From IMG/VR virus record IMGVR_UViG_3300047408_000236, positions 1 through 61,298 of that record: a stretch of DNA of 61,298 nucleotides. One strand, given 5' to 3'. The translations under genes were made by a program, and so were the position numbers. Below the pieces are notes generated by a model. That model was not told the DNA's origin. It searched no databases and was given only the letters and a program-made list of their open reading frames with translations. Source of the stretch: a virus. Numbering within the stretch: position 1 is the first letter of the stretch; each line of letters opens with the position of its first letter. Positions 3,167 through 53,192 of this stretch are shown piece by piece.

Positions 3167-3620
3167 GGTCGAGAAGCGCATCCTCGATGCGATCCGACTC
3201 GGTGCAACCTACAAACTGGCTTCTCAGTACGCCTGTATCGATCCTGCGACGTTCTGGCGATGGGTCGAGAAGGACGCAAACTTTGCGACCAGGGTCAAAG
3301 AGGCCGAGGGTGCGGCTACGGTTGGCTGGCTGGCCAAGATTGAGAAGGCTGCATCGGATGGCAACTGGCAGGCCGCGGCCTGGAAACTCGAACGGCGATA
3401 TCCCGAAGACTACTCGCTGCGCCAGCGGCTCGAGCACACCGGCGCCGATGGTGGGCCCATCGAGATTGACGAACGTTTGATCCTGAGCGAGGCGGAACTT
3501 GACCAGTACGTCCTTACCATCGTTGAACGCGCAGGAGCGCGCCTTGATCAGCCTCGCACGGAACCCCAACCGCGTCTGGCTCCCCCAGAAGGGACCACAA
3601 ACGGAAGGGTATCTCAGTGA
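3129..3620 (+). CDS. terS: terminase small subunit
   Basis: A 163-residue protein with an N-terminal helix-turn-helix (LASQYACIDPATFWRWVEKD) followed by a helical body, as in phage small terminases that recognise the packaging site. It lies immediately upstream of the large subunit and overlaps both neighbours. The ATG at 3129 (MAKGQR) is chosen because the HTH begins soon after; the in-frame extension back to 3072 overlaps the methyltransferase. Confidence 0.75.
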   Translation: MAKGQRASKRSPEVEKRILDAIRLGATYKLASQYACIDPATFWRWVEKDANFATRVKEAEGAATVGWLAKIEKAASDGNWQAAAWKLERRYPEDYSLRQRLEHTGADGGPIEIDERLILSEAELDQYVLTIVERAGARLDQPRTEPQPRLAPPEGTTNGRVSQ

Positions 3621-4968
3621 TGCCGACGAGTTGTACTACGGTGGTCAGGCCGGCGGCGGCAAGACTGAACTGGTCCTCGGCCTAGGGCTGACCGCGCATC
3701 AACGATCAATTATCTTCCGCCGTAACTTCACTCAGTTCAAAGGCGGCGAGGGACTCATCCAGCGCAGTCTCGCTGTGGTCGGGAACCGCGGCCATTTCTC
3801 GTCTCGCATCAATGGCTTGCTTATGAACGACGGCCGCACCATCGAGTTCGCGGGCATCGAAGACCTGGGCGAACTGGGCAAGTGGAAGGGCCGGCCGCAC
3901 GATTTGGTCGCTTTTGACGAACTCAGCGAGTTTATGGAGCAGATGTACACGTTCTTGATGGGCTGGGTACGTACCACGAAGCCCGGTCAGAGGACGCGCG
4001 TTGTCGGCGCCGGTAATCCGCCAACTAGCGTTGAAGGCGAGTGGGTGATTCGTCGCTGGGCACCGTGGCTCGATGCGCAGCACGAACATCCTGCTCGGGC
4101 CGGCGAATTGCGCTGGTACGCACGTGTCGACGACAAGGAAACCGAGGTCGAGGACGGTACGCCGTTCGAGTTCCGCGGCGAGACGATCACCCCGAAGAGC
4201 CGTACCTTCATCCCGGCCAGCCTGAACGACAACCCCATCTTGGCTAGGACCGGATATGCGGCACAGCTCCAGGCCATGCCTGAGCCACTACGCAGCCAGT
4301 TGCTCTACGGCGACTACACGATTGGCCTGAAAGACGATCCGTGGCAGATCATTCCATCACAGTGGGTCGATATGGCCATGCGTCGCTGGCATCCCGAGAT
4401 GCGACCTGAAGGCTCGGCCACGTGCTCCGGTCTGGACGTTGCGCGCGGTGGTGCGGCAAAGACCGTGCTTGCGCAGCGCTGGAACAATTGGTTCGCACCG
4501 CTGCAGCGCTACGCCGGCAAGGAAACGCCCGATGGCCAGGAATCGCGCCGTATCGTCATGCAAGCATTGCTGAACGGTGGCTATGCGAACATTGACGTTG
4601 GTGGACCTGGTGCCGCGGTCGTCGACCTGTGCCGCGAGGTGGATGCTGACGTTGTGCCGGTCAACTTCGGTAGCGGTACGAAACACAAGGACCGCACAAA
4701 CCTGCTCCGGTTCGTGAATGTGCGCGCGTTTATGTATTGGTCGTTCCGGGAAGCGCTCGATCCGGAGAAGGGCGACAACATTATGTTGCCGCCCGATACG
4801 GAGTTGAAAGCGGATTTGTGCGCGCCGCGATGGATGATGCGCGTCTCAGGCATTCAGGTCGAGGACAAGGACGAGATCAGCAAACGGATCGGGCGATCTC
4901 CGGACGCGGGTGATGCGGTCGTGCTGGCCGCGATGCCGCCATTAGCTGCAGGGGTGGCCTTCTACTGA
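3499..4968 (+). CDS. terL: terminase large subunit
   Basis: The packaging motor: 489 residues with an ATPase Walker A-like GGQAGGGKTE (48-57), Walker B LVAFDE (136-141), and a C-terminal nuclease domain beginning near CSGLDVARGG, with later acidic residues (DVGGPG, SPDAGDAV). The start is uncertain: TTG 3499 has a GAGGCGG Shine-Dalgarno about 5 bases upstream; TTG 3523 is the alternative. It overlaps terS by about 120 bases. The stop TGA is shared with the CTG start of the next gene. Confidence 0.9.
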   Translation: MTSTSLPSLNAQERALISLARNPNRVWLPQKGPQTEGYLSDADELYYGGQAGGGKTELVLGLGLTAHQRSIIFRRNFTQFKGGEGLIQRSLAVVGNRGHFSSRINGLLMNDGRTIEFAGIEDLGELGKWKGRPHDLVAFDELSEFMEQMYTFLMGWVRTTKPGQRTRVVGAGNPPTSVEGEWVIRRWAPWLDAQHEHPARAGELRWYARVDDKETEVEDGTPFEFRGETITPKSRTFIPASLNDNPILARTGYAAQLQAMPEPLRSQLLYGDYTIGLKDDPWQIIPSQWVDMAMRRWHPEMRPEGSATCSGLDVARGGAAKTVLAQRWNNWFAPLQRYAGKETPDGQESRRIVMQALLNGGYANIDVGGPGAAVVDLCREVDADVVPVNFGSGTKHKDRTNLLRFVNVRAFMYWSFREALDPEKGDNIMLPPDTELKADLCAPRWMMRVSGIQVEDKDEISKRIGRSPDAGDAVVLAAMPPLAAGVAFY

Positions 4969-7007: not shown

Positions 7008-7948
7008 TCATCGCTAGAGCACCACTCCGGGTCACGCTCGGTGGAGGCGGCACGGATATCCCCGCCTATTACACGAAGCACGATGGTCGATGCCTCGCGG
7101 CGGCGATCGACAAGTACGTGTACATCACCATCCACGAGACGTTCGTCGACGACCTGATCGTCAAGTACAGCAAACTCGAACGGGTCGCGTCCGCAGAGTA
7201 CGTCGAGCATCCGATTGTGCGCGAGGCATTGCGCATGCTGTGCATCAGCGGGCGCGGCCTGGAGATTTGTAGCCACGCCGATATTCCAGCCGGGACCGGT
7301 CTGGGCTCGTCGTCCAGCTTCACGGTGGCGTTACTCCAGGCGTTGCACGCGTACCGGCGCCAGACGTGCTCACGCGAGCAGCTCGCTGAGGAAGCGTGCC
7401 GTATTGAAATTGACGCGCTCGAGCAGCCAATCGGTAAGCAGGACCAGTACATCGCGGCGTTCGGCGGCGTGACAATCCTCTCGTTCTACCAGGACGGCCG
7501 CGTGAGTCCTGTGGGCCTGAACCTGCGAGCTGATACGTTCGCGGACCTCGAAGACAATCTACTGTTGTTTTTTACAGGTCACACGCGCAAGGCTGCGGAG
7601 ATTCTCGGCGCCAGCACGATGCCAGATGACGTATCGGCCTCTTGGGTGGCTGGCAATGCCGCAGATGCGCTCGAGGATGGTGATATCAAGGGATTCGCGC
7701 AGCGGATGAACGAGCAATGGCACTTCAAGAATCTGCGTACGCCGGCTGGTGACGATATTCAGCGATGGCGCGACCTCGGGCTGGCGAACGGCGCGCTCGG
7801 CGGAAAATTGGTCGGTGCTGGTGGCGGCGGGTTCCTGATGTTCTATGCAGAGGACAAGGCGCCGCTCAGGCGAGCGATGGCTGAGCAGGGGTTACGCGAG
7901 GTGCGGTTCCGGTTCGACTTCGACGGCGCGCGGGTCATGGCGTCGTGA
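7004..7948 (+). CDS. hddA: GHMP kinase, D-glycero-D-manno-heptose 7-phosphate kinase-like
   Basis: A 314-residue GHMP kinase resembling HddA, which puts phosphate on C1 of heptose 7-phosphate on the way to GDP-heptose. Motifs: IIARAPLRVTLGGGGTD at the N-terminus, PAGTGLGSSSSFTVA (ATP loop), and a late VGAGGGGFLMFY. The GTG start at 7004 (GTGA overlap) begins exactly at the family's usual first strand. The flanking isomerase and nucleotidyltransferase genes support the assignment. Confidence 0.8.
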   Translation: MIIARAPLRVTLGGGGTDIPAYYTKHDGRCLAAAIDKYVYITIHETFVDDLIVKYSKLERVASAEYVEHPIVREALRMLCISGRGLEICSHADIPAGTGLGSSSSFTVALLQALHAYRRQTCSREQLAEEACRIEIDALEQPIGKQDQYIAAFGGVTILSFYQDGRVSPVGLNLRADTFADLEDNLLLFFTGHTRKAAEILGASTMPDDVSASWVAGNAADALEDGDIKGFAQRMNEQWHFKNLRTPAGDDIQRWRDLGLANGALGGKLVGAGGGGFLMFYAEDKAPLRRAMAEQGLREVRFRFDFDGARVMAS

Positions 7949-8622
7949 GCCTGACCGTCGCGATTCTGTGCGGCGGACTTGGTACCCGATTAAAACCGCT
8001 CACCAACACGATGCCGAAGTCATTGGTTGAAGTGGCCGGCGTCCCGTTCATCAACTATCAACTTCGACACTTGGCCAGCCAGGGCATTGAACGCGCGGTG
8101 TTGTGTATCGGATACCGCGGCGGGCAAATCGCAGAGTTTGTCGGCAGCGGCCAGCGCTTCGGGCTGGACGTGGCGTACTCGTCTGATGGCGGCAAGCCGC
8201 TCGGCACGGCAGGCGCAATCAGGAAGGCACTACCGATGCTCGGCTCAGAGTTCGGGGTGCTGTACGGCGACGTATTCCCGCTCTATAGCTTGCAGGCTGT
8301 CGGTGAGTCGATTCTTGGGACAGGCGATGCTGTTATGGCGATACGTTCGCCTGGCCGCGGCAATGTCAAGTACCACGATGGTCGTGTGCTGGCTTACACG
8401 CGCGGCAGTCGATCAGCCTATGGTGATGCTGGATTCTCCGTACTTCATGCCGATGCGTTCCTGCACACGGACGTGACCGATCTGGGCGACTTGTTCAGCG
8501 ACCTTGCGATCGCCGATTCCCTCGACGGGTACGAGGTGACCGAGCCGGTGTACGAGGTTGGCTCGTTCGAAGGGCTCGCGTCATTCGAGCGCTATGTCCT
8601 TCACGACCGAATACCTGTCTGA
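7945..8622 (+). CDS. hddC: sugar-1-phosphate nucleotidyltransferase, HddC-like
   Basis: A 225-residue nucleotidyltransferase of the type that joins a sugar 1-phosphate to GTP or another NTP. The signature LCGGLGTRLKPLT is at residues 8-20, followed by PKSLVEVAGVPFINYQL; GTAGAI lies in mid-protein. The context (heptose kinase before, phosphoheptose isomerase after) points to D-glycero-alpha-D-manno-heptose 1-phosphate guanylyltransferase. The nucleotide cannot be proved from sequence. GTGA overlap at the start. Confidence 0.75.
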   Translation: MSLTVAILCGGLGTRLKPLTNTMPKSLVEVAGVPFINYQLRHLASQGIERAVLCIGYRGGQIAEFVGSGQRFGLDVAYSSDGGKPLGTAGAIRKALPMLGSEFGVLYGDVFPLYSLQAVGESILGTGDAVMAIRSPGRGNVKYHDGRVLAYTRGSRSAYGDAGFSVLHADAFLHTDVTDLGDLFSDLAIADSLDGYEVTEPVYEVGSFEGLASFERYVLHDRIPV

Positions 8623-9145
8623 AGTTGCGGCAATTGCCGCTGGTTTCGACGTTGAGCAGGTTGATGCTTGCGCCGCGCTGCTTGATGGAGCGCAGCGCGT
8701 GTTCGTCCTGGGTAATGGTGGGAGCGCGGCGAACGCGTCGCACTTCGTCAACGATCTGCGCAAGATTGCCGGCATCGAAGCCTATGCGCCGACAGACAAC
8801 GCGGCCGAGCTTACTGCGCGCACGAATGACGATGGCTGGCACACGGCGTTCGCCGGTTGGCTCAAGACCAGCCATCTCGATCTATTCGACCTCGTGTTCG
8901 TGTTGTCGGTTGGCGGCGGCTCGAGCACAACCAGTGCGAACATTGTTGCTGCGCTCGTTTATGCGCGCGAGGCTGGTGCGCAAATCGCGGGGATTGTGGG
9001 CCGAAGCGAGGGCTATACGCGCCAGGTCGCGAACGCCTGCATTGTGGTTCCAAACGTCAATGAGGAGCACGTGACGCCTCACGCTGAATCGTTCCAGAGC
9101 GTGCTGTGCCATCTGCTGGTGTGGCATCCGGCCCTGCAGTCGTGA
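8594..9145 (+). CDS. gmhA: SIS-domain phosphoheptose isomerase, GmhA-like
   Basis: A 183-residue SIS protein with the GmhA signature GNGGSAANASHF (about residues 36-47) and a second loop LSVGGGSSTTSANI. GmhA converts sedoheptulose 7-phosphate to heptose 7-phosphate. Conserved late acidic/His residues occur in EEHVTPHAES. ATG 8594 is chosen because the helix before the motif fits GmhA length (about 190 aa). Overlaps the preceding gene by 29 bases. Confidence 0.8.
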   Translation: MSFTTEYLSEVAAIAAGFDVEQVDACAALLDGAQRVFVLGNGGSAANASHFVNDLRKIAGIEAYAPTDNAAELTARTNDDGWHTAFAGWLKTSHLDLFDLVFVLSVGGGSSTTSANIVAALVYAREAGAQIAGIVGRSEGYTRQVANACIVVPNVNEEHVTPHAESFQSVLCHLLVWHPALQS

Positions 9146-9801
9146 GGCTGTTCGTCGACTCGGCCAATCTTGCGGATATTGAGGATGCGTTGCGCACGGG
9201 CGCGATCAGCGGGGTCACCACGAACCCGAGCATCCTGGCGAAAGAAGGCGTGGCGGACCGAATGCGTCGCTACCAGAAGATTGTCGGGTTGCTCGAAGGC
9301 CAATCGCTGAGCGTAGAACTGGTCGGGACGGATCCAGAGCGCATGATCTTCGAGGCATATGACCTCGCTATTGCGCTGAAGTACCCGAACCTGGCGATCA
9401 AGGTGCCGATGCGCTGGTCGTGGCTACAGGTCGTGCGCGAGTTGCGCGATCACGAGGTGCAGACCAACGTGACGGCGTGCATGACGTATGCCCAGGCGAT
9501 CGTGGGTGCGATGGTCGGCGCGACCTACGTCAGCATGTTCTGGAACCGTATTCGCGACGGTGGCGAGCAGCCGGCTGACATCGTGCGCGCTGTGCGTACA
9601 ACCTTCGACGCGCACGTCTGTAACACTCAGATCATCGTCGGCTCGATCCGCTCAACGCAGGACGTGACCGACGCCATCATGGCCGGTGCTGACATCGTGA
9701 CCGTGCCGCCGCAGTTCCTCGCACCATTGTGCGAGCATCCGAAGACCGACGAAGTGATCAGCCAGTTCCTGCGGGACGCTAAACAACCCATTCACGTCTA
9801 A
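9142..9801 (+). CDS. transaldolase / fructose-6-phosphate aldolase-like
   Basis: A 219-residue short transaldolase starting RLFVDSANLADIEDAL, with GVTTNPS and the Schiff-base lysine in NLAIKVP (K87). Transaldolases of this size make sedoheptulose 7-phosphate, the substrate of the isomerase encoded just upstream, so the phage could feed its own heptose route. GTG start in a GTGA overlap. Aldolase activity on another sugar is possible. Confidence 0.8.
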   Translation: MRLFVDSANLADIEDALRTGAISGVTTNPSILAKEGVADRMRRYQKIVGLLEGQSLSVELVGTDPERMIFEAYDLAIALKYPNLAIKVPMRWSWLQVVRELRDHEVQTNVTACMTYAQAIVGAMVGATYVSMFWNRIRDGGEQPADIVRAVRTTFDAHVCNTQIIVGSIRSTQDVTDAIMAGADIVTVPPQFLAPLCEHPKTDEVISQFLRDAKQPIHV

Positions 9802-16958: not shown

Positions 16959-17794
16959 TTCCCGCACCGACCAACAACTACACGGATTACCGAGACTGCT
17001 TGCGCGAGGCGGTTGCGCAGCAGCCCGAGGAATGGACGTTCAAGTCCGATCCGCGGTACCAGCGGGTGCTCGAGCATGTTGACCATTACCAGGGCGTCAG
17101 ATTCATCGTGCAGATCAAGCAGGAGTACGCGGCGTACTGGTCGAGGGCGCTCTCGATATTGCCGGCCATCGTTGAGGAGAATGACCGTTACGGCAAGCCG
17201 ATCACTGACACGTTCCAGGAGATCGGGCTGACGTGCTCGCCGTCGAACCTGCGCTATTTGAGCCAGGCATTGCGATTGTGGACGCATGCGCTCGAGATGG
17301 GCATGGAACGCATGCACGTGGTCGAGTTGGGCGGCGGCTACGGTGGGCTGGCACTGTACGTCCATCGGCTCGCATCGTTGTTCCCGAGCGTAGAGCTCGC
17401 TTGGTACACGATCGTCGACTTGCCGGAAGCCGCGGACATTCAGGAGATGGTGTTTGCTGAATGGGGCGTGCCGGCCATGACGGTGAATGGACTGGACGAG
17501 GTTGCGCTCGAATGGTGTCTCGACCATGCCGATGAGACGCAGGCGCCGCGGTTTCTGTTCTCAGCTTATGCCTTCAGCGAGTTCGATGAGGAAACGCGCG
17601 ACTACTACGCCGAGCGTGTTGCGAAGCATTGCGAGCATGGCGTGCTGATCTGGAACTTTACCAACGGTCCGCACGAGAAACTAGCGGAACGGCCGGTCGG
17701 TGGGCCGGTCTATCAGTTCATCAATAAGCCGTTACGCACCAATCTAGATCAACCGGCCATGTATCCGGAACCCATCCAGCTCGTGAGGTTCTAG
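16955..17794 (+). CDS. putative sugar O-methyltransferase
   Basis: A 279-residue SAM-dependent enzyme with VELGGGYGGLALYVHRL (about residues 120-136) as motif I and YTIVDLPEAADIQ as the following acidic strand, a pattern seen in putative sugar O-methyltransferases of glycan clusters. ATG 16955 is in an ATGA overlap; longer in-frame starts lie inside the glycosyltransferase. Confidence 0.65.
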   Translation: MIPAPTNNYTDYRDCLREAVAQQPEEWTFKSDPRYQRVLEHVDHYQGVRFIVQIKQEYAAYWSRALSILPAIVEENDRYGKPITDTFQEIGLTCSPSNLRYLSQALRLWTHALEMGMERMHVVELGGGYGGLALYVHRLASLFPSVELAWYTIVDLPEAADIQEMVFAEWGVPAMTVNGLDEVALEWCLDHADETQAPRFLFSAYAFSEFDEETRDYYAERVAKHCEHGVLIWNFTNGPHEKLAERPVGGPVYQFINKPLRTNLDQPAMYPEPIQLVRF

Positions 17795-18927
17795 TGGTTT
17801 CGGCCCCGGTCAAACGCTACCCGCTCGCGCACGTGACGTACGGCGACGAGGAGATGGCCGCGGTCATGATGACGTTGAGGGCTGGCCAGACCACGTGCGG
17901 GCCTCAGGTGAAAGAGTTTGAGCGGTCCTTTGCCGAGTATGTCGGTCGCGAACATGCCATCATGGTCAACTCGGGCTCGAGCGCTGACTTGCTGTGCGCG
18001 TTCGGGCTGGGACCGGCTGAGCCTGGCGACGAGGTGCTGGTGCCCGCGGTGACGTGGCCGACACAGATCTGGTCGTGCACGATGGCTGGCTACACGGTGC
18101 GGCTCGTCGACGTCGACCCGACTACGTTGCAGATGGACCTTGCCGACTTGAAGCGCAAGGTCAACATCCATACGCGTTGTGTGTTCCTGACGCACGTGCT
18201 CGGCAACGTCGGCAACCTCGACGACTTGGACGATGTTGATATTCCAATTCTCGAGGACTGCTGCGAGGCGATGGGTGCTCGCTGGCGCGGCAAGCATGTC
18301 GGGACGTTCGGTTCGGCCGCGGCGTTCTCGTTTTTCTTCAGCCACCTCCTCAACACGATGGAGGGCGGGATGGTGGTGACGGACTCGCCGATCGATGAGC
18401 GCGACTACCGGCTATGGCGTTCACACGGCTGGGAGCCGAAGGTCGATTTTCCGTTCTGGTTCCCGACGTGGGGTTTGAACGTGCGGCCGACCGAGATCCA
18501 GGGCGCGTTCGGTAATGTCCAGATGACGCGGCTCGAAGGTTTTCGGAAAGCTCGAGCACGCAATTTCGACCGACTCATGGCCGCCATCCCGTGGGACTGG
18601 CTGAACGGCATAGCCGTATTGCCTGAATGTGAACCGGCATGGCATGGCTTCCCGGTGATGGTTGTCGAGGATGCACCGTTCTGCAAAACCGACTTGTGCC
18701 GGTACCTCGATGCGCATGGCGTCGAGACGCGGCCGATTGTGGCAGGTAACTTTGCCGAGCAGCCCGTAGCGCAGGGCCACCCACAGATCATCGCTGAGCA
18801 TCTGCCGGGCGCGGAACACATCCATACGCACGGGTTCTATATCGGGATCTCATCGTTTGATGATGAGGACGGCGCGGCTTACGTCGGCGAGGTTGTGCGC
18901 GACTTCCTACGAGACACTAAGTGCTGA
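17794..18927 (+). CDS. DegT-family PLP enzyme with His in place of the PLP lysine (sugar 3-dehydratase type)
   Basis: A 377-residue DegT/DnrJ/EryC1/StrS protein. Family aminotransferases bind PLP through a lysine before the TxxGGG loop; here the equivalent segment reads [15 protein letters not shown], with His184 at that place. The same Lys-to-His change is known in ColD and RfbH/E1-type sugar 3-dehydratases, so removal of a C3 hydroxyl (a 3-deoxy sugar) is predicted rather than amination. Other PLP-site residues are present (EDCCEAMG). GTG start shares a base with the preceding TAG. Confidence 0.75.
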
Positions 18928-21053: not shown

Positions 21054-21451
21054 CTACGGGCGTGGCGTTCGCGGTTCAGGCATACGTCGAGGAACAGGCC
21101 CAGGATGTGGTGTCACTGCTCAAGGCGTGCGGCTGGCAGGATAACGCGATCCCGACGTACGAGGTTCTGGCTGAGGCTTCGATGACCGGCTGCGCGTTTG
21201 TCGCGGTCAGGGACGGTCACGTGGTCGGGTTCATTAGGGTGATCAGTGATGGCGAGGTGGTGTCGTACGTGACGGAGGTGGCCGTGGATGCAGGGGCAAG
21301 ATTCCAGGGGATCGGGCGAGCGCTGATTGACGCTGTGGCTGCCGAGTTCCCGAAGGCGCGCATCGATCTGCTGTCGACGTCGAGTGCGCAGGAGTTCTAC
21401 GACACTCTCTGCTTTACGCGGAAGTCTGGTTATCGGAGATGGCCGCAGTGA
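21050..21451 (+). CDS. GNAT-family N-acetyltransferase
   Basis: A 133-residue acetyltransferase with the acetyl-CoA loop ARFQGIGRALIDA (about residues 83-95) after the strand VVSYVTEVAVD. The following gene is a lysine-containing sugar aminotransferase, so the likely job is acetylating an amino sugar. ATGA overlap with the preceding gene. Confidence 0.75.
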   Translation: MTTGVAFAVQAYVEEQAQDVVSLLKACGWQDNAIPTYEVLAEASMTGCAFVAVRDGHVVGFIRVISDGEVVSYVTEVAVDAGARFQGIGRALIDAVAAEFPKARIDLLSTSSAQEFYDTLCFTRKSGYRRWPQ

Positions 21452-22539
21452 TCCCCCTTTTCAAAGTGTTCATGGCTCCCGATGCCAAGGATCGAGCCGG
21501 GGTAACGCTCGATTCTGGGTACGTCGGCGAGGGTCCGCGCGTACAGGAGTTCGAGCAAGCGTTTGCTGAGTTGGTGGGTTTCTCTTCTCGCCCACCGCTC
21601 GCGCTCAACTCCTGTACGTCGGCGCTCGACCTGGCCTGTCACCTGACCGGTGTCGGGCTGGGCGACGAGGTCATCACTACGCCGATGACGTGTACGGCCA
21701 CAAACGGCGTGCTGGTGAATCGCGGCGCAAGGATTGTGTGGGCTGACGTGGACCCGCTGACCGGTCTGATTGATCCCGCGGATGTGGCTCGGAAAATCAC
21801 GCGGCGTACGCGCGCCATTATGGCCGTTGATTGGGCTGGTCGGTCATGCGATTACCGGGCGCTGCGCTTTTTTGGTCAGCCAGTTATTCAGGATGCAGCG
21901 CACAATCTGTTCATCGATCCTGAGAACTGCGGTCACTACGTGGCCTGGTCGTTCCAGGCCATCAAACACCTGACCACTGGTGATGGTGGTGCGTTGCTCG
22001 TACCAGCGGGGCAATATAACCGCGGCCGTCTGCTCCGTTGGTACGGGCTCGATCGCACGTCATCTGCCGACTTCCGATGCTCGCAGGACATCAAAGAGGC
22101 TGGCTTCAAGTACCACATGAACGACATCGCCGCCAGCATTGGGTTGGCCAACCTGCCCCATGTCGCAGAACTCGTGGCTCACCACCGCGAGAATGCGGCG
22201 TGGTTCTCCCAGAGCCTCCAGGGCGTGCCGGGCATCACACTACCTCCTGCTGATCCCGGCTCGTCCTGGTGGCTGTATTGCCTGCTGGCCGATGACCGAG
22301 CGTCCTTGATCGATCATCTGGCCAGCCGCGGCATAAGTGCAAGTCCCGTGCACCGACGTAACGATACCCACCCGGCTTTCTACTACCCAAACGGTCCGCT
22401 ACCCGGCGTCGACCACTTCGCCGATCACGAGGTTGCCATCCCTGTGGGCTGGTGGATCTCTGAGAATGATCGGGGGCGGATCGTGGCGGCCGTACTCGAG
22501 TGGTCGCACTCGCGTCAATTGGTTGGAGCTGCGGCATGA
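21439..22539 (+). CDS. DegT/DnrJ sugar aminotransferase
   Basis: A 366-residue PLP aminotransferase. Unlike its relative at 17794, it keeps the PLP lysine (AWSFQAIKHLTTGDGG, K176) and has QDAAHNLF for the pyridine-nitrogen contact. It should convert a keto-sugar nucleotide to an amino sugar, which the adjacent GNAT could acetylate. Last enzyme of the second glycan cassette. Confidence 0.8.
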   Translation: MAAVIPLFKVFMAPDAKDRAGVTLDSGYVGEGPRVQEFEQAFAELVGFSSRPPLALNSCTSALDLACHLTGVGLGDEVITTPMTCTATNGVLVNRGARIVWADVDPLTGLIDPADVARKITRRTRAIMAVDWAGRSCDYRALRFFGQPVIQDAAHNLFIDPENCGHYVAWSFQAIKHLTTGDGGALLVPAGQYNRGRLLRWYGLDRTSSADFRCSQDIKEAGFKYHMNDIAASIGLANLPHVAELVAHHRENAAWFSQSLQGVPGITLPPADPGSSWWLYCLLADDRASLIDHLASRGISASPVHRRNDTHPAFYYPNGPLPGVDHFADHEVAIPVGWWISENDRGRIVAAVLEWSHSRQLVGAAA

Positions 22540-37441: not shown

Positions 37442-40147
37442 ATGGCCTACTGGCGCGGGTCGCAATACGACCGACAGCAGGCCGTTGCGCAGACTAGTCA
37501 GAACTACGATCAGGTCCATGCGACCCCGCTGATCCTGCAAGGCCAGGACAAACTCAATCCTGGCAAACAGACATTCGAGACGACACGTCCGAATGCGTTC
37601 TTACTCAGGTCGCAGCGCTTCTTTGCGCTGATCGCCAATAACTTCGATCAGGTCCATGCGACGCCGCGGCCACTGCAGGGTCGGGACGCGATGGCCGTCG
37701 GTGGATCGACGCTGGACACGCGTCGGCCGGTTGCTTATCTAGTTCGACAGACACGGCTGGCGATGACCAGCCAGCAATACGACCAGGTTCATGGCACTCC
37801 GAACCCGCTGCTAGGCAAGGATGCGCTACCAGTTGGTGGGTCGACCATTGATACACGGCGACCGACCGCATATCTGGCCAGGGCCTATCGCTACCCGGTT
37901 TACGACGGCAATTCGGGCACGGCGTTCCTGCCCGAGCAACCGACCGGTGTACCGCTCCCGCCAGGGCAATCGTCACTTGACACGCGGCGTCCGTCCGCAT
38001 TTCTGGCTCGTGCTTACAGATACCCGGTCTACGATGCCAACTCGGGGAATGGGTTCCTTCCCGAGCCGGGTGGGTCTTCGGTTGCTGGTGCTTCGCATCT
38101 GCTGCTGCCGGCCGCCCATCTTGGTCGGTTCCGATATGCGACGTATGACACGAACTCGGGCAATGCGTTCCTGCCCGAAGAGCCGGTCTCTGGACTTCCG
38201 CCAGGACAGGCGACGCTGGATACCAGGCAACCCGGTGTTGCGCGGTATCGGCTGGCGACATACGACGCGAATGCTGGCAACACGCTCCTGCCCGAGCTCG
38301 TCGGGCAAGACGCGATGGATGTCGGCGCACAGTCGTTCGACCTCCCGCCAAAGACCGCGGCGCGGTCGGTTGACCTTCTTACCTTCGTCGATCCCAGCGA
38401 AAACTGGCTATTTGGGACAGATGCACTAAACGCGGGCGAGCAGTCGTTCGATCTGCCGCCGATAGCGGTATCTCGAGCACGTGACTACTCCTGGTCGCAG
38501 GATCTCACCCCGAACCTGATCGGCCAGGATTCGATGGCTGCGGGTGCGCAGTCATATGCGCTGCCGCCGATCGGGCCGGTCCGTGCTCGCGATTACTCGT
38601 GGGTACCACCAGTCAGTCTCAGCCTGACGGCAGCCCCCGCTGGCGCACAGCTCACGGATTCGCTGCCGCCACGGGCCGCAGCTAGAGCGCGAGACTACAC
38701 CTATACCGCTGGTCTGATCCCGAATCTCGTGGGTCAGGATGCGGTCACTGCTGGCAAGGAGTTTTTCGACCTTCCGCCAGTCGGGCCGCTCCGAGCGCGA
38801 GATTACACGTTCGCGCCACCGATCAATCTCTGCTGCCTGACGACGGTCGTCCAGCCGATTCCATACGGCCAGCAGAGCACCGATTCGCTACCTGCACACT
38901 CGGCACTGCGGGCGCGAGACTACTCGTGGTCGCAAGAACTGATCCCGACTCTGATCGGGCAGGATTCGCTCAACGCAGGTAAGCAGTTATTCGACCTGGC
39001 GCCTGCACCGGCACCACTGCGAGCCAGGGACTACTCGATCAGTGAGTCGTTCCCGCTTACGCTGATCAGCCAGGACGCGGTAACCGTTGGCGAGCAGTTC
39101 ACAGCACTGCCGCCAATCGGTGCGCCGCGAGCACGTGACTACTCGTTTGTCCCGCCGGTTAACCTGCCGGCGCTGACGACCGTTGTTCAGCAGATCCCGT
39201 ACGGCCAGCAGGTTACCGACTCGCTGCCGCCACGGGCAGCCGCTCGAGCCAGAGACTACTCGATCGTCGAGTGGTTCCCGCTCACGCTCAATGGGCAGGA
39301 CGCACTCCCCGCTGGCGAGCAGCGGACCGATCTCGCACCAATAGCCGCTCTGAGGGCGCGGGACTACTCGTTTACCCCGCCGGCCTCCCTCGCGTGTCTG
39401 ACGCAGGTCGTCTTCCCGTGCGGTCAGCAGTCGACCGATTCGCTGCCACCTCGCGCGTACCCGCGACTCCGCGATTACACATGGATTCAAGAACTGATCC
39501 CAGACCTGATCGGTCAGGATCAGATGAATGCGGGCGAGCAATCGTTCGACCTCGCACCATCGCCTGCGCCACTCAGGGCGCGCGACTATTCGATCACGGC
39601 AGCATTCCCGCTCACGTTGATTGGGCGGGACGCGATGACGGCTGGCGACAGCACGCTCGCCAGCGAGAACCCGCCCAGGGCCGCGGCTCGAGCACGTGAT
39701 TACACGTGGCTGCAGACGCTGCCACTGCTCACGACGCAGATCCTGCCGGCGGGCGAGTCGAGCCAGCAAACCGAAGGCCCGCCACGTGGCCCGCTGCGCG
39801 CTCGCGATTACACGCATCTCGACCTGACCAAACGAAACCTGATCGGTCAGGACTCGATGATCGTCGGCGAGTCGACCTTCATCAGCGACCTTCCGCCGAG
39901 GCCGTATCCACGGGCGCAGGTTCTTCGCGTCCCGGACACGAACAACATGATCGGGTTGCTATCGGCGCCCGTACGCGACCTGGCGTACACGTTCAGCCTG
40001 GCCGGTGGTCACTGGGAATCCGATCTTGGCGGGAGTCACTGGGCATCCGATCTAGCCGGGAGCCGTTGGGGATCTGACGTGACTGGTAGTCATTGGGAAT
40101 CCGACCTGGCTGGTAGCCATTGGGACTTCGGTCCGTCTCAGGAGTAG
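37442..40147 (+). CDS. 901-residue multi-repeat structural protein
   Basis: The largest protein here, built almost wholly of degenerate repeats. Residues about 18-260 hold repeats with YDQVHATP, GQDAMxVG, and TRRPxAYL; then at least 13 copies of a ~40-50-residue unit with GQDxMxAGEQ, LPP and RARDYS/T; the last ~45 residues are a 9-residue repeat (HWESDLAGS-like, five turns). No catalytic motif is seen. It is probably an extended fibre or sheath-like protein on the virion. Confidence 0.6.
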   Translation: MAYWRGSQYDRQQAVAQTSQNYDQVHATPLILQGQDKLNPGKQTFETTRPNAFLLRSQRFFALIANNFDQVHATPRPLQGRDAMAVGGSTLDTRRPVAYLVRQTRLAMTSQQYDQVHGTPNPLLGKDALPVGGSTIDTRRPTAYLARAYRYPVYDGNSGTAFLPEQPTGVPLPPGQSSLDTRRPSAFLARAYRYPVYDANSGNGFLPEPGGSSVAGASHLLLPAAHLGRFRYATYDTNSGNAFLPEEPVSGLPPGQATLDTRQPGVARYRLATYDANAGNTLLPELVGQDAMDVGAQSFDLPPKTAARSVDLLTFVDPSENWLFGTDALNAGEQSFDLPPIAVSRARDYSWSQDLTPNLIGQDSMAAGAQSYALPPIGPVRARDYSWVPPVSLSLTAAPAGAQLTDSLPPRAAARARDYTYTAGLIPNLVGQDAVTAGKEFFDLPPVGPLRARDYTFAPPINLCCLTTVVQPIPYGQQSTDSLPAHSALRARDYSWSQELIPTLIGQDSLNAGKQLFDLAPAPAPLRARDYSISESFPLTLISQDAVTVGEQFTALPPIGAPRARDYSFVPPVNLPALTTVVQQIPYGQQVTDSLPPRAAARARDYSIVEWFPLTLNGQDALPAGEQRTDLAPIAALRARDYSFTPPASLACLTQVVFPCGQQSTDSLPPRAYPRLRDYTWIQELIPDLIGQDQMNAGEQSFDLAPSPAPLRARDYSITAAFPLTLIGRDAMTAGDSTLASENPPRAAARARDYTWLQTLPLLTTQILPAGESSQQTEGPPRGPLRARDYTHLDLTKRNLIGQDSMIVGESTFISDLPPRPYPRAQVLRVPDTNNMIGLLSAPVRDLAYTFSLAGGHWESDLGGSHWASDLAGSRWGSDVTGSHWESDLAGSHWDFGPSQE

Positions 40148-42575: not shown

Positions 42576-44207
42576 GTGCGCCCGCTCATCACCGCACTGG
42601 TTGCGATCCTCGCGCTCGGCGTCGTGCTGGTCCCAGGATTGGTAGGCATGGCACAGACGGCGCCGCCAGTTACCTTCCTCGAAACGTTCGACTTCGAGCC
42701 AGGTGCGCCCGTGCACTACGTGCCGCCGGGCTGGGATGTGTCGGTGGTTGCGCACGAGAACGAAACCATCGAGCCGATGTGGGCAAACCACGGCCCGAAC
42801 TGCGAGCCGCCGGATGATACGTGGCCGGGCGGTACGCCGAACGGCGTACACAATCACTTCATCTCACTGGAGCCGCAGACAACTTTCGACTGCTCGAACC
42901 ACATCATGACCAGCATGAACGCAGGCTACGGCGCGGTCTATCTGACGCCGCCGGCCATGCTCGATTTCCGCAATGGCACGGCCACGCTCGAGTGGGACAT
43001 GTCGACCGAACGCACCAGCTCACGTGACTGGGTCGACATCATGATCTTGCCGTTCGACAACCTGATGGCGCTCAACATGGTCGACTTTCATACACCCACG
43101 GACGGCATTCAGGTCGAGCTGCAGGGCGGCGGCAATGTGTTCGCGGCACATACGTTTCTGCCCGCGTTCTCGTCTGCCTGCGGCCCGCTGAGTTACGCCA
43201 AGTCAGCGTCGATCTATTACTGCGGACTGCCCTTTGATGGTTATCACCAATGGGACATGATTCAGCAGTTGTACGGCTTGCATACGTCGGCCGCGCGCAG
43301 GGATCACTTCATCATCGAGCTTTCCAAGACCCATCTGCGCATGGGCTTTCGGCCAGCGAGCGCAGTCGGCTCTCCGTTCCATCCGTACTTCTACTGGATC
43401 GATTCAGACATTCCGGGCGGGCTTCGGTTCGACGAGGGTGTCGTGCAGCTCAACCAACGGGCGTACAACCCGCTCAAGCCGTGTGGTCCTGGCGTCGGTG
43501 ACGCGGGCGCGTCCACAGTCGGCTGGCAGGGGTCGTGCAGAGCAGCCACGTGGCACTGGGACAACGTGGCGATCAGTCCCGCTACGCCGTTCACCATCAT
43601 CCCTGGCGCGCGCAAGGTGCAGTCTGGTGGCAGTGTGACGTTCCCGCTGCCGGCGCCCGCGAACTCGTTCCTGAAAGCGGCCGGCTCGCGCGGGACCGAA
43701 TATTCGTTGAACGGTACGGCGTGGCAGCGGTTGCCGGTGGTCGGGCCTGAGGGACCGGTCGAGGCTGGTGATTCATTCTGGACGGCCGTGCCCGCGGGTA
43801 CTCAGACGGTGCGGTTCCGTAACGGCTCGGTCCAGGATGTGTATCTCTATAGCCGCACACCGCGGGATGCCATCCCGATTCCGACGCCATTGCCGGCTAC
43901 GGCTACTGCCATTGCTACACGAACGCCGGTGAGCACACCAACGGCTACCCCGACCGCGTTCGTGCCGCCTACGGCGACATCAACGCTTCCGCCAGCAACG
44001 GCAACGGCTGTTGCCGCGGCGACCGCGACGGCAGTAGTGGCTGCCACCGATACGCCGACACCAACGCCTGAACCACCGGTAGACAAGCCACTCACGCCTA
44101 CGGTGATGCCGACAACGTTCGAGTGTTATGCGCGTGCCGTCGAACGGCAGGATGGCGTCGATACCGAAATCCTGGTGTTGCAGCCCAGTACGTACTGCCG
44201 GCCGTAA
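42576..44207 (+). CDS. large secreted protein with Thr/Pro/Ala linker
   Basis: A 543-residue protein with a signal peptide (ITALVAILALGVVLVPGLVGM), a body of ~400 residues that looks lectin/LamG-like (TFLETFDFEPG, NGTATLEWDMS, RTSSRDWVDIM), and a long PTATPT-type linker (about 430-515) before a short Cys-containing end. Such linkers are typical of Chloroflexota extracellular proteins. It closes the late operon; it may act on or bind the cell surface. No catalytic site recognised. Confidence 0.6.
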   Translation: MRPLITALVAILALGVVLVPGLVGMAQTAPPVTFLETFDFEPGAPVHYVPPGWDVSVVAHENETIEPMWANHGPNCEPPDDTWPGGTPNGVHNHFISLEPQTTFDCSNHIMTSMNAGYGAVYLTPPAMLDFRNGTATLEWDMSTERTSSRDWVDIMILPFDNLMALNMVDFHTPTDGIQVELQGGGNVFAAHTFLPAFSSACGPLSYAKSASIYYCGLPFDGYHQWDMIQQLYGLHTSAARRDHFIIELSKTHLRMGFRPASAVGSPFHPYFYWIDSDIPGGLRFDEGVVQLNQRAYNPLKPCGPGVGDAGASTVGWQGSCRAATWHWDNVAISPATPFTIIPGARKVQSGGSVTFPLPAPANSFLKAAGSRGTEYSLNGTAWQRLPVVGPEGPVEAGDSFWTAVPAGTQTVRFRNGSVQDVYLYSRTPRDAIPIPTPLPATATAIATRTPVSTPTATPTAFVPPTATSTLPPATATAVAAATATAVVAATDTPTPTPEPPVDKPLTPTVMPTTFECYARAVERQDGVDTEILVLQPSTYCRP

Positions 44208-44228
44208 CCATCTTCCTCCCCCCACGAG

Positions 44229-44280
44229 ACAGCCCCTGTCTGGTCCTCTACGGACTGGGCAGGGGCTGTTTTCGTTTTTA
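44229..44280 (+). terminator. strong intrinsic terminator of the late operon
   Basis: ACAGCCCCTG (44229-44238) pairs with CAGGGGCTGT (44260-44269); an inner GTCC/GGAC helps the stem. TTTTCGTTTTTA follows. It separates the late forward operon from the convergent reverse operon. Confidence 0.85.
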
Positions 44281-44284
44281 TGGG

Positions 44285-45892
44285 CTAGTCGGCCGTCGCG
44301 TGGCCGCGCGTACGGTGCATGCGCTGGATGTTGACCTTCTTGGTGACCGGCTCGCCGTGGTACGGGTTGACGCAGTGCCGCGGACACGATCGTCTGTGAT
44401 CCCACTCGCCCACCGGGAACCAGCGGCCATTGGCGATCTCCCACACGACCTGATGGGCCGGCCGGTTGTTCTTCGGGCGGCCGTCAGGATACGCCCAGCG
44501 CTGGACGCCGTAGCCGTCCTTGTCGATCGAGCCTGTCCACAGCCAGCAGTCGCCTTGCGATCGGTCAATCTTGCCCAGCACCTCGCGCACCTCGATCGGC
44601 GGTAAAGGCAGCGCCGGTCGCTCAGGCTCGGGTGCCCGCCCTATCTGCTCGATGACCACCCTACGCCCGTAGGGAGGCTCTGTAGGAATAGGCGTAGGGG
44701 GTGGAACGTAGGAAGATTTGGGCGGCTTGGGGAACTTGACGAGGCGACGGATCCTGCCGTGGGCGATGTAGGCAGTGAAGTCCTGCATATTGGCGGGGTC
44801 GAGGTCGCGGTAGTCGAGGCCGAGCCGGTCAGCGGCTATTTTCTGGAGTGGCTTGAGTTCCTGGGCGAAGTAGACGCGGGTGCTGATATTGGCACTGATG
44901 CCGTCGTTGAGATCCGATTCGGCCTGGGTGAGGTCGTCGACTGCGATTTTGCGGCGGCGGCCGGCCCGGTGGAATGGTTCTGCGAGGTCGATGCGTTCGC
45001 CGAGTTGGCCGGCTTCTTCGAAGATCAAGCGAAAGCCGCCGGGTACGAGTGACGCGCAGCGTTTGGCTTCGGCCAGACCGAGTGCAACAACGTCGCCGCC
45101 GAGTGATGGGTGATCGAAGGAATCGTTGTCGAGCAGGACGCTGATGCCGCGGTTCAGGAGGTCGGCAATGTCGACGCCGTCGGGGCCGATGCTAGTACCG
45201 AACTGGTCGGCCAGGTCGAGGAATCTGGCCACCCAACCGGCACAGACGGTGCGCAGCTCGCGGTCCGACTTGACGGTCTGCTCGAGCCGCTCGCCAATCA
45301 AGCGTAGGGTCCGTTCTTCTCCGCGGGCGTCCAGTTGACGGATCACGTCGGCGGTGGCACGGCGGGCAGCCCGTTTCCAGGCGCCTACGCCACCCGAGCG
45401 GAATACTTCGGTGAGTCGTTCGGCTACTTCGGTTGGTGAGCCAATCAGAAAGTTGACCGGGTTGGTGCTGACGCACGCGGTCCAGCGGAAGCCGTGCAGG
45501 CGCACTACGGCGTCGACCAGTGGGTCAGACAGATCAGGTGTGGCTACCAGTGCCACTCGTTTGCCGTCGAGCCTGACGGTTGCAACGGATGCGCTCTTGC
45601 CGGCTCCAGTTGGCCCGAGCCAGGCGCAGTGTGGCTTTCTTGTCCGATCGATGACCAGCCCATCGACCTTCATCAGATCGTGTGGCGGGCGAAGGCTCCA
45701 CCACCAGCGGCGGAACAGCGGCGTATTGGTTGGACGTCGGACTATGACGTCCTTGGCGGAACCGTTGTCAATCTTGCCACGATCATTGCCAGGCATGATG
45801 ACAAACAAAAGCCCTGCTACTCCGAGAAGCAGCAGGGCTGTACGCGTCTGATCGTTCTGTTGGAGAAACTCAGCCAGTGATGTCGGGTTCAC
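44285..45892 (-). CDS. VirD4/TraG-like ATPase fused to an HNH nuclease
   Basis: A 535-residue protein. An N-terminal membrane helix (ALLLLGVAGLLFVIM) precedes a T4 coupling-protein-like ATPase with Walker A GPTGAGKS (93-100) and a Walker B-like LIFEEAG. The C-terminus from residue 449 is an HNH domain: CWLWTGSIDKDGYG, AHQVVWE, then DH (498-499), N509 and H512. Coupling proteins bring DNA to a secretion channel; a fused nuclease is not a standard arrangement. ATGA overlap with the VirB4 gene. Confidence 0.75.
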   Translation of the reverse strand: MNPTSLAEFLQQNDQTRTALLLLGVAGLLFVIMPGNDRGKIDNGSAKDVIVRRPTNTPLFRRWWWSLRPPHDLMKVDGLVIDRTRKPHCAWLGPTGAGKSASVATVRLDGKRVALVATPDLSDPLVDAVVRLHGFRWTACVSTNPVNFLIGSPTEVAERLTEVFRSGGVGAWKRAARRATADVIRQLDARGEERTLRLIGERLEQTVKSDRELRTVCAGWVARFLDLADQFGTSIGPDGVDIADLLNRGISVLLDNDSFDHPSLGGDVVALGLAEAKRCASLVPGGFRLIFEEAGQLGERIDLAEPFHRAGRRRKIAVDDLTQAESDLNDGISANISTRVYFAQELKPLQKIAADRLGLDYRDLDPANMQDFTAYIAHGRIRRLVKFPKPPKSSYVPPPTPIPTEPPYGRRVVIEQIGRAPEPERPALPLPPIEVREVLGKIDRSQGDCWLWTGSIDKDGYGVQRWAYPDGRPKNNRPAHQVVWEIANGRWFPVGEWDHRRSCPRHCVNPYHGEPVTKKVNIQRMHRTRGHATAD

Positions 45893-47550: not shown

Positions 47551-47671
47551 TCAGGGCTTGCTCCAGAAGTGCCGAAGCCTGCTGCTCCAGTGAACGCCAC
47601 TCGCGCGCGGCAATCTCGGACAACGTGTCAGTGTCCGTACCATCACGGACCGTAACCTTGAGTTCTGCCAT
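47369..47671 (-). CDS. overlapping frame, possible small protein or VirB4 N-terminus
   Basis: A 100-residue reverse frame whose first ~60 residues (LKVTVRDGTDTDTLSEIAA, REWRSLEQQASALLEQAL) look like normal helical protein, while the last 40 are low-complexity and overlap the real VirB4 frame. It may be a separate small gene, or hold the missing VirB4 N-terminus joined by a frameshift. Confidence 0.35.
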   Translation of the reverse strand: MAELKVTVRDGTDTDTLSEIAAREWRSLEQQASALLEQALNAQRTRVATNDKLRARVAERQVRSNGSVRTRTHGPEPSDPAHRTGKDHRDTSDVASATTA

Positions 47672-47991
47672 TGCTCCCGCCATCGTGGCCAGATGACCAC
47701 GTGAAAGTAGTGCCCAGCGGCTGCTAGCCACTCGTGTATGCGGCGCATGCCGAGCTTGCTGCGTAACCCGCTAGCGATCGCACCAACGCCTGACACGTCG
47801 CACGCCGGCTCACCGGTCAGGGTCCACGCGCCAACGCATAGCACGATGGGTACGGCCCACCACCACGAGTAACCGTTGTTGATCAGGTACCAGATGCTCG
47901 CTACCCCGAGCGCGAGCATCACGAAGTCCCAGAACGGGGTACGCCGGTCCAGTTCGGTCGGAACAATGATGACTGGTGAGCGTTCGTCCAC
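47551..47991 (-). CDS. PrgI/VirB3-like membrane protein
   Basis: A 146-residue protein with two membrane helices (FVMLALGVASIWYLI and WWAVPIVLCVGAWTL) and a cytoplasmic C-terminus. The place directly upstream of VirB4 and the two-helix form fit PrgI/VirB3 partners of T4SS. Its last ~40 residues overlap another plausible frame. GTG start directly after the pilin stop. Confidence 0.65.
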   Translation of the reverse strand: MDERSPVIIVPTELDRRTPFWDFVMLALGVASIWYLINNGYSWWWAVPIVLCVGAWTLTGEPACDVSGVGAIASGLRSKLGMRRIHEWLAAAGHYFHVVIWPRWREQWQNSRLRSVMVRTLTRCPRLPRASGVHWSSRLRHFWSKP

Positions 47992-48227: not shown

Positions 48228-48329
48228 TTACTTGAGGAACGTGGCATGGGCAATCACGAGGATGCTCATGCCACAGGCGATGATCATGGAAAGCGCTAGT
48301 GTCCAGCCGATGAAGTACCTCCTAGCCAT
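48228..48329 (-). CDS. 33-residue membrane peptide in the T4SS operon
   Basis: Short frame with one membrane helix (TLALSMIIACGMSILVIAHA). It overlaps the end of the NlpC gene by 8 bases (ATGGCTAG), in keeping with the operon's coupling, and precedes the pilin. Too short to name. Confidence 0.5.
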   Translation of the reverse strand: MARRYFIGWTLALSMIIACGMSILVIAHATFLK

Positions 48330-48864
48330 GACGGACCCGGCCGAACCCGACGAGGTGTGCGCGCCAGAACGGGTCCGTATAGGACTGGCGGCCAACAACA
48401 GGCTCAATCGCGCTGACCATCCAACCCGGCGCGACGACTATCCCCACATGGGTTATTCGATCGGGGGAGCTGTAGGTTCGCTGGAAGAAGACCAGGTCGC
48501 CAACGTCGGGGGTAGTGACGAGCGGTACGTCGTTGTACTGAGTTTGTGCGGTACGCGGCAGTGAGTAGCCGAGTGTGCGGAACACCGCTACCGTGAGGCC
48601 CGAGCAGTCGATGCCGCGTCGGTCATTGCCACCGAAAACGTAGGGCACGCCCATGTATGGCTGAATAGCGGCCATAAGTGCTGATGTGTCGCTGAGTAGC
48701 GGTCCTGCTGGTGCGACTTGCGCGGGTGCGGGCACGGTGCCCGCTGGCTGCAGGTTCGAGCCGGCGAACCAAAACGTCGACCAGGCTTGTGAATGCAAGC
48801 CGACTGCTGGTGCGAGGATGAACATGGCGAACACGGCGAGGCCGACACCGATCCAGCGCATCAT
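48322..48864 (-). CDS. NlpC/P60 peptidoglycan hydrolase of the T4SS
   Basis: A 180-residue, membrane-anchored enzyme: N-terminal helix (IGVGLAVFAMFILAPAVG), Pro/Ala linker, and an NlpC/P60 domain with catalytic Cys87 (IDCSGLTVAVF), His139 (ITHVGIVV) and VGDLVFF. Such enzymes open peptidoglycan for monoderm type IV machines, like VirB1. ATG 48864 is chosen because it starts at the signal anchor and gives an ATGA overlap with the VirB6-like gene. Confidence 0.8.
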   Translation of the reverse strand: MMRWIGVGLAVFAMFILAPAVGLHSQAWSTFWFAGSNLQPAGTVPAPAQVAPAGPLLSDTSALMAAIQPYMGVPYVFGGNDRRGIDCSGLTVAVFRTLGYSLPRTAQTQYNDVPLVTTPDVGDLVFFQRTYSSPDRITHVGIVVAPGWMVSAIEPVVGRQSYTDPFWRAHLVGFGRVRHG

Positions 48865-49891: not shown

Positions 49892-50092
49892 ATGCGACTG
49901 ACGCGTCTAAAGGACCGGCGCGAGCGGGCCCTGCTGACTCAACATGAGTTGGCTGAACGCGCCGGTGTCAGTCGCGCCACGATCGCGGCAATCGAGGCTC
50001 AGAAGGCCGAGCCGCAGTTTTCCACAATCCGCAAACTTGCGGAGGCACTGAAGTGCGAACCAGCCGACCTGATGGAACCCGAACAGACCTAA
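49892..50092 (+). CDS. XRE-family HTH regulator
   Basis: A 66-residue, single-domain regulator: LTQHELAERAGVSRATIAAIE is a clear helix-turn-helix, followed by the usual FSTIRKLAEALKCEPADLM. It is transcribed away from the T4SS operon and may control it and/or its own operon. ATG 49892 is chosen to begin at the domain; an inverted repeat sits just upstream. Confidence 0.8.
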   Translation: MRLTRLKDRRERALLTQHELAERAGVSRATIAAIEAQKAEPQFSTIRKLAEALKCEPADLMEPEQT

Positions 50093-52202: not shown

Positions 52203-53129
52203 TTAGAGGTTCCAGCGAGCCGACAGTGATGCGGTGTCGGCGATCTCGTTGACCGTGCGGTCACTCAGCGTAATGTAATCGCTTAAAACGTCCCGACTCA
52301 TCTGGCCGAGTCTCGAGCGGAGCTGGATCTCGGCGCCCGGTCGCTGCGCCAGGAACTCCGTCGCAGCAGAATGCCGCGTCCGATGCGGGTGAGCGTTCGG
52401 TACGCGAGCAGCCGTGCCCATCTCCGTGAAAATCTCGCGAACCCGGCGTGGCGAGAGCGGTAAGCGCTCACGTGTGGTGAATAGCGCATCGATGCCGGCG
52501 CGCGCCTCGCGCACCTTCAGCCAGTTTCGAAGCGCCGACAGGCTTGGGCCGCCATCACGCCGAGCCTGGACGCGAAAAATCACTTTGCGCGGATGGCCGT
52601 TCTTCGTGCGGCGAAACAGGATCGAGCCCTCGACCAGGTCGACGTCGGCGACGCTTGCGCTACAGAGCTCGCCCACGCGACAGCCGGTATCGAACAGCAT
52701 CAACAGCACCGCTCGATCGCGAATCGGATTGGCGCCACATGCCGCCGCTTGTACCAACCGGCGCGCTTCGTCTTCGGTGAACGGCTTGCGATGAATCTTC
52801 TGGACGCGTGGCACCTTGAGCCGAGCCAGCGGATCGAACGGGTAGACGTCGTTTTCCCACAGGAACCGCGCCCAGGTCTTGAGCGTGGTCACTCCCTGCT
52901 TTTCGGTGACCAGCCCACCACGGCGACCGTGGGACCGGCCGCGGAGCCAGGCCTGCCACTCGCGCACGAACTGCGGGTTGAGTGCGTCGAGCGTGGGCTC
53001 GACCTCGTGCTCGACCAGGAACGCCAGGAAACTGTCCTGGTAAATGCGGTACAGGCGCAGCGTCATCGGGCTGCGGTTCAATCGCTCCAAGCTACGCCGG
53101 TGAAACTCAGCGGCTTCGATGAGGTCCAC
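52203..53129 (-). CDS. tyrosine recombinase / integrase
   Basis: A 308-residue site-specific recombinase. The N-terminal SAM-like arm domain (TLRLYRIYQDSFLAFLVE) is followed by the catalytic set: R151 (GCRVGEL), H249-x-x-R252 (HRTRH) and Y285 (LSDYITLSD). The usual second His of the LGH motif is Gln (LGQM). GTG 53129 is chosen because GGAGGG lies 6 bases upstream; the frame runs back to TTG 53177. It should integrate the phage or resolve circles. Confidence 0.85.
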   Translation of the reverse strand: MDLIEAAEFHRRSLERLNRSPMTLRLYRIYQDSFLAFLVEHEVEPTLDALNPQFVREWQAWLRGRSHGRRGGLVTEKQGVTTLKTWARFLWENDVYPFDPLARLKVPRVQKIHRKPFTEDEARRLVQAAACGANPIRDRAVLLMLFDTGCRVGELCSASVADVDLVEGSILFRRTKNGHPRKVIFRVQARRDGGPSLSALRNWLKVREARAGIDALFTTRERLPLSPRRVREIFTEMGTAARVPNAHPHRTRHSAATEFLAQRPGAEIQLRSRLGQMSRDVLSDYITLSDRTVNEIADTASLSARWNL

Positions 53130-53163
53130 AGGAAGCCCTCCAGCACCCCTTTTGATCCCGCGT

Positions 53164-53192
53164 AATGTAGAACGCAAGTTCTAGGCTTTCAA
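53164..53192 (-). promoter_or_regulatory. integrase promoter with internal palindrome
   Basis: Reverse strand: TTGAAA (53192-53187), 17 bases, TACATT (53169-53164). TAGAAC-GCAA-GTTCTA (53168-53183) overlaps the spacer and the -10 edge, a likely operator. Expected start about 53157, giving a short leader with GGAGGG before GTG 53129. Confidence 0.55.

Follow-up and report, generated by a model that had tools for sequence, protein, structure and literature searches.

A coupling-protein-like ATPase fused to an HNH domain in a small type IV secretion system-like operon of predicted tailed temperate phages

Phages and conjugative elements usually count as two distinct routes of gene transfer. A soil phage contig, the IMG/VR virus record IMGVR_UViG_3300047408_000236 (61,298 bases, the whole of which is referred to here as the window), raises the question of what a membrane ATPase resembling the coupling proteins of type IV secretion systems (T4SSs) does in a phage when it is fused in a single chain to an HNH nuclease domain and no relaxase is found. 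The window is predicted to represent a tailed temperate phage because it carries terminase, portal, and tape-measure genes (PHROG matches) together with a tyrosine integrase, for which a search against plasmids gave no match. Motor, channel, and nuclease are each of a known kind; a phage cassette that unites all three, with HNH joined to the motor in one chain, appears to be new. Open-access literature yielded neither a phage-borne T4SS of this type nor a coupling-protein-HNH fusion, and phages are unmentioned in the main text of a 2025 T4SS review (PMC12857230).

The coordinates of all features are collected in Table 1. The open reading frame (ORF) at 44285-45892 had been picked out in an original prediction as an ATPase and an HNH domain in one 535-residue chain, and this is borne out by the intact frame, HNH PHROG matches, and the predicted core fold. 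The ORF is real, but the prediction did not state that it lies on the minus strand of a tailed phage within a T4SS-like operon. The membrane helix that it claimed was found as one hydrophobic helix (residues ~18-36), and each of the five fusion proteins known to us (that of the window and four siblings) has exactly one. Both claimed ATPase motifs were confirmed as well, with Walker A at G93-S100 and Walker-B-like residues at E292 and E293, where the motif reads EE instead of the usual DE. The start of the fusion gene overlaps the stop of virB4 by 4 nt.

A search for the same fusion in other genomes recovered it at the end of a similar operon in four more viral contigs, giving five in total: G1 (L002, UViG_3300015190_000002), G2 (L005, 3300005330_000016), G3 (L017, 3300036772_000211), and G4 (L019, 3300006028_000013). 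A sequencing or assembly error joining two genes is excluded, as these four contigs carry the same in-frame fusion. The best terminase matches are phrog_979 for the window, G2, and G4, phrog_2 for G1, and phrog_38 for G3; with three terminase PHROG types among five contigs, the cassette moves between phages rather than being bound to one lineage. In G1, the VirB4 is longer (L002 7488-9815) and only 24%-26% identical, while the ATPase::HNH core downstream is 78% identical; mosaic exchange within the G1 operon is the apparent explanation. Relatives of the ATPase were found neither in plasmids nor in two pattern scans of one genome per species, although the latter reach close relatives only and do not establish absence from cells. 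When the HNH domain alone was searched in viral contigs, none was found.

To which class of ATPase does the motor belong? Its sequence matches are weak, with Pfam AAA_10 (E 0.0011) covering Walker A only and falling below the curated cut-off. With E values up to 1 allowed, neither the window protein nor two siblings matched the coupling-protein models PF02534, PF10412, and PF12696, and for this reason we do not file the motor as a coupling protein; in the same scan, the coupling protein of an Embleya plasmid (NZ_CP108778) matched PF02534 at 2e-10. A sequence search of the PDB gave no significant match. An AlphaFold model of the full-length protein from three sequences was too low in confidence for use (pLDDT 36), and we relied on a model of the core (residues 52-391) from five sequences, with pLDDT 62 and pTM 0.60. 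This model places five helices between Walker A and B (core positions 102-183), a block with pLDDT ~63-93. Foldseek ranked DndH-C and TrwB at the top, and a second structure aligner gave Z scores of 13.8 for VirB4, 13.7 for DndH-C, 13.5 for TrwB, 13.2 for Cag-beta, 13.1 for DotL, and 11.6 for HerA. The modelled fold thus assigns the motor to the VirD4/VirB4/HerA superfamily. The earlier description of a VirD4-like ATPase holds insofar as this is a coupling-protein-like membrane ATPase, but fold scores are tied, and neither fold nor sequence distinguishes it from VirB4 or HerA; "VirD4-like" is a fair label, with membership among the coupling proteins unproven. We infer that the motor fills the VirD4 role because it has a membrane helix, directly follows a clear VirB4, and occupies a similar place in the gene order on the Embleya plasmid.

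The fusion gene is the last of a six-gene minus-strand operon that runs from a VirB6 through a VirB1-type hydrolase, a VirB2 pilin, a small PrgI/VirB3-like protein, and a VirB4 to ATPase::HNH. An inner-membrane T4SS set of VirB4, VirB6, VirB2, and wall hydrolase is present in one operon, with pilin and VirB6 scoring below Pfam cut-offs. The window VirB4 is 49%-65% identical to those of three siblings, a small two-helix pilin-like ORF occurs in all five operons, and the VirB6/TrbL-type protein has a distant match in gp153 of Bacillus phage G. The PrgI/VirB3 label of the small membrane protein is by position only. The hydrolase slot is filled by NlpC/P60 in the window and by an SLT_3 lysozyme in three siblings; as listed, the hydrolase ORF of the window extends to 49110, and its likely start is near 48864. 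A divergent regulator adjoins the operon and has divergent relatives in G1 and G3.

The absence of a relaxase, which had also been claimed, held for every family searched: all five contigs lacked matches to PF03389, PF08751, PF13814, and PF02486, as did the three tested for PF03432 (window, G1, and G2), although the search was limited to these families and the contigs are possibly incomplete. Because no relaxase was found, the HNH domain would most likely perform the DNA step. We tentatively favor, at somewhat less than even confidence, the reading that the fusion protein is the coupling-type ATPase of a small relaxase-less T4SS-like system in tailed temperate phages and that its HNH tail handles DNA at the motor. 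The single helix would anchor ATPase::HNH in the membrane beside VirB4, VirB6, the VirB2 pilin, and the cell-wall hydrolase, and DNA would be driven through the VirB channel by the motor, which is presumably hexameric. The HNH tail would hold the DNA and nick or cut it while it is being fed to or is leaving the motor; in binding and perhaps cutting the transported DNA, it would do the job of the relaxosome elsewhere. The original prediction had likewise suggested DNA handling at the membrane, whether by cutting for transfer or by attack on incoming DNA, and this is a sensible idea. The fusion and its recurrence in five phages, the operon, the lack of the five relaxase families searched, the fold class of the motor, and purifying selection on the tail are shown, whereas DNA as the substrate, the direction of transport, cleavage, and the benefit to the phage, which would be that its own DNA or that of the host passes from cell to cell, are what we infer from this arrangement. 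There is a precedent for transfer that needs no T4SS relaxase, as a single FtsK-like motor moves unprocessed double-stranded DNA in actinomycete elements (PMC3218068). The further proposal that the phages spread, or spread DNA, from cell to cell via their own relaxase-free T4SS, with the coupling-motor nuclease making the DNA end, is doubtful.

Several observations weigh against the favored reading. The core model reaches only pLDDT 62; VirB8 and oriT were not identified, with no specific search made for VirB8; all data come from uncultured contigs; and in phage G, an independent parallel, the HNH gene is of another subtype (HNH_5) and its adjacency to the ATPase gene may be due to chance. The catalytic residues also bear on this. 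The tail itself is of HNH type: phrog_826 matches residues 420-531 of the window protein (E 5.9e-20), two more HNH/endonuclease PHROGs match below 1e-10, and all five fusion proteins have HNH PHROG matches, while Pfam HNH_3 is weak in the window and reaches 6e-4 in G2. H499, C503, C507, and H512 are invariant in all five tails. However, the four siblings carry K, E, K, and D in place of N509, and G1 carries G in place of D498. The HNH residues had been described as intact, and the window copy does have D498, H499, N509, and H512 at the numbers given, but the full set is not a trait of the family. With N509 lost in four of five proteins and D498 in one, catalysis across the family is uncertain and cleavage may not be conserved.

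This pattern is what would be expected if the tail were a DNA-binding or substrate-docking domain in which cutting is dispensable, a counterpart of the variable C-terminal domain of other coupling proteins. Where N509 and D498 are lost, the Cys, His, and Gly positions that form the fold are retained; a variable C-terminal domain is present in a few coupling proteins (PMC7431656), and the C-terminal tail of TrwB recruits the relaxosome (PMC12857230). Nevertheless, the four catalytic residues are intact in the window copy and both H499 and H512 are invariant, and we regard a purely docking tail as unlikely.

It is also conceivable, if rather improbable, that the fusion serves superinfection exclusion, whereby the membrane ATPase::HNH of a lysogen captures DNA that enters at the envelope, then threads and cleaves it, much as HerA-nuclease defence complexes treat cytoplasmic DNA. 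The core fold also matches HerA of the SIR2-HerA and DUF4297-HerA defence complexes, and the operon, with a divergent repressor-type regulator of its own and the integrase nearby, resembles a lysogeny cassette. Defence would not need a pilin, a VirB6 channel, or a cell-wall hydrolase, however, PADLOC matches of the window protein are weak (mad8 at E 0.011 and HerA at 0.079), and the cutting residues are not fully conserved.

The history of the tail differs from that of the core, since cores unite the window with G1 (support 99/99) while the tail tree rejects this pairing (AU p 0.0004). Identity of siblings to the window is 55%-78% in the core and 31%-38% in the tail. In the tail tree, the window tail groups with a free-standing actinophage HNH, and its closest relatives are also free-standing actinophage HNHs, although long branches make the tree fragile; the test does not reject one common origin for all five (p 0.117). 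Exchange of the window HNH tail probably postdates the fusion, and the simplest reading of the sequences is that an HNH tail has been retained yet swapped at least once. Such a fast, mobile part with free-standing kin could be a selfish homing-type HNH that landed beside the ATPase gene, became fused, and spreads itself or the cassette while playing no part in transport. This is distinctly improbable, as the fusion is in frame with a similar LP-P linker in all five proteins and spans three terminase types; moreover, tail codons are under purifying selection among the four siblings (dN/dS ~0.2-0.47, with dS saturated). Protein-effector delivery, with the ATPase as effector receptor and HNH serving another end such as expression control, is very improbable: many T4SSs do move proteins as effector translocators (PMC12857230), but the operon yields no identified effector candidate, and a motor that bears a DNA-cutting fold suggests DNA as the substrate.

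Table 1. Features of the window discussed in the text, with positions counted from its first base.
Feature	Position	Strand	Remarks
ATPase::HNH fusion gene	44285..45892	-	535 aa, GTG start, single uninterrupted frame
Single N-terminal membrane helix, residues ~18-36	45785..45841	-	Kyte-Doolittle 19-residue window 1.95
Walker A GPTGAGKS, residues 93-100	45593..45616	-	GPTG-GKS invariant in 5/5
Predicted helical insertion, residues ~153-234, between the Walker motifs	45191..45436	-	AlphaFold model; position as TrwB all-alpha domain
Walker-B-like RLIFEE, residues 288-293	45014..45031	-	F291, E292, E293 invariant in 5/5
C-terminal HNH domain, residues ~445-523	44324..44560	-	D498, H499, C503, C507, N509, H512; phrog_826
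VirB4-type ATPase, 553 aa	45889..47550	-	NCBIfam CD1110-family VirB4 2.7e-19, TraC-F 2e-15
Small membrane protein, PrgI/VirB3 position	47551..47991	-	No Pfam match; 36-43% identity to siblings in the same place
VirB2/TrbC-type pilin, 74 aa	47992..48216	-	TrbC 6.5e-5 and T4SS_pilin 5.4e-4, each short of the curated cut-off
NlpC/P60 cell-wall hydrolase, VirB1 role	48322..48864	-	NLPC_P60 5.7e-20
VirB6/TrbL-type membrane protein, 313 aa	48861..49802	-	TrbL_4 8e-4, below cut-off; 31-45% identity to three siblings
Cro/CI-type regulator, divergent from operon	49892..50092	+	HTH_3 1.3e-15; start codon inferred
Terminator-like hairpin	44227..44271	+ (as written)	20-pair stem followed by T-rich tail
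Terminase large subunit	3499..4968	+	phrog_979 8.9e-32; marks tailed phage
Tyrosine integrase	52203..53177	-	Phage_integrase 3.2e-24; 79% and 75% identity in two siblings

The terminator-like hairpin listed in Table 1 sits between the fusion operon and a convergent plus-strand ORF that ends at 44207. The 543-residue product of that ORF (42576-44207) looks secreted, is rich in Thr and Pro over a C-terminal stretch, and has no Pfam match, and a Thr/Pro-rich, secreted-looking ORF also stands at the head of the G1 operon. Within the fusion gene itself, the codons for the membrane helix hold a second terminator-like hairpin (45839-45810, minus strand) with 13 pairs and a T-rich tail; it could attenuate expression or be due to chance. 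Elsewhere in the window, inspection by eye suggests a sugar-nucleotide-like set among the head genes (5857-9801) comprising a short-chain dehydrogenase, a GHMP-type kinase, a nucleotidyltransferase, an SIS-type isomerase, and a transaldolase-like protein, with DegT-type aminotransferases beyond it at 17794-18927 and 21439-22539. Adjoining the tail genes, a 901-residue protein (37442-40147) has many copies of a short ARDYS-like repeat and no Pfam match.

That the fusion is kept in five different phages suggests that in some phages the cell membrane may be a site where DNA is moved or destroyed. A small T4SS-like cassette that recurs in tailed phages with a nuclease-fused motor, and for which a relaxase was not found, would be a hybrid of the phage and conjugative routes, and it would open to experiment the question of whether DNA can be moved or destroyed by a T4SS that has no relaxosome. 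If relaxase-free transfer by a phage T4SS is true, tailed temperate phages would have a second, virion-independent route of transmission.

Among known systems, Bacillus phage G gp150-gp157 (L014 7757-14624) shares a phage-borne set of a pilin, a TrbL, a small PrgI-like protein, a VirB4, and a HerA/TraG-like ATPase followed by an HNH gene. There, gp150 matches T4SS_pilin at 3.7e-6, gp153 matches TrbL_4 at 1.8e-11, gp155 is a VirB4 (blastp 2.9e-45 to the window VirB4), gp156 is HerA/TraG-like (a weak match), and the adjoining gp157 is an HNH endonuclease. The module seems to be a complete T4SS-like one with partial annotation (gp155 as VirB-like and gp156 as MsbA-like). It differs from the cassette of the window in that ATPase and HNH are separate genes, the ATPase is longer (825 aa) and only weakly homologous to that of the window (hhalign probability 4.7%), the HNH is of the HNH_5 subtype, and the host genome is that of a jumbo phage. 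Because the HNH subtype differs and HNH genes are common in phages, the parallel is suggestive only. A relative of gp156 occurs in phage SPO1 (gp27.4, L043 8770-11490, E 8e-23), which we did not use as support since neither VirB4 nor HNH is annotated beside it; in SPO1-like phages this type of gene is adjoined by small ORFs and, in phage Adastra, also by a gene annotated as a plasmid segregation protein.

T4SS operons on Actinomycetota and Chloroflexota plasmids, such as that of Embleya, likewise cluster a PrgI family protein, VirB4, a coupling protein, and NlpC/P60, and their VirB4 similarity to that of the window is 28% (E 4e-14). These operons differ in lying on plasmids and in encoding, besides a replication-relaxation protein, a standard coupling protein (PF02534) that lacks HNH. 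The Embleya coupling protein aligns in register with the window ATPase at Walker A, although with a probability of only 43%, and the gene after VirB4 on a Chlorohelix plasmid gave no match to it.

HerA-NurA, SIR2-HerA, and DUF4297-HerA complexes also pair a motor with a nuclease, but the window has an HNH-type nuclease fused to its motor, which is anchored in the membrane and accompanied by a separate VirB4. VirB4 and HerA translocases share the NTPase superfamily with the window motor, at Z scores near to or tied with that of TrwB. The type IV coupling proteins (VirD4/TrwB/TcpA) share with it a motor anchored in the membrane by an N-terminal helix, Walker A/B, a helical insertion as modelled, and a gene directly after virB4, in addition to the fold match of the modelled core to TrwB. 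The window protein differs from them in lacking a coupling-protein Pfam match, in having no relaxase found with it, and in its HNH C-terminal tail. This tail shares the HNH signature of free-standing phage HNH endonucleases (phrog_826, HNH_3 type), with ~40%-48% identity to those of Gordonia phages; whereas these are encoded by independent genes, the HNH of the window is the C-terminal tail of a motor.
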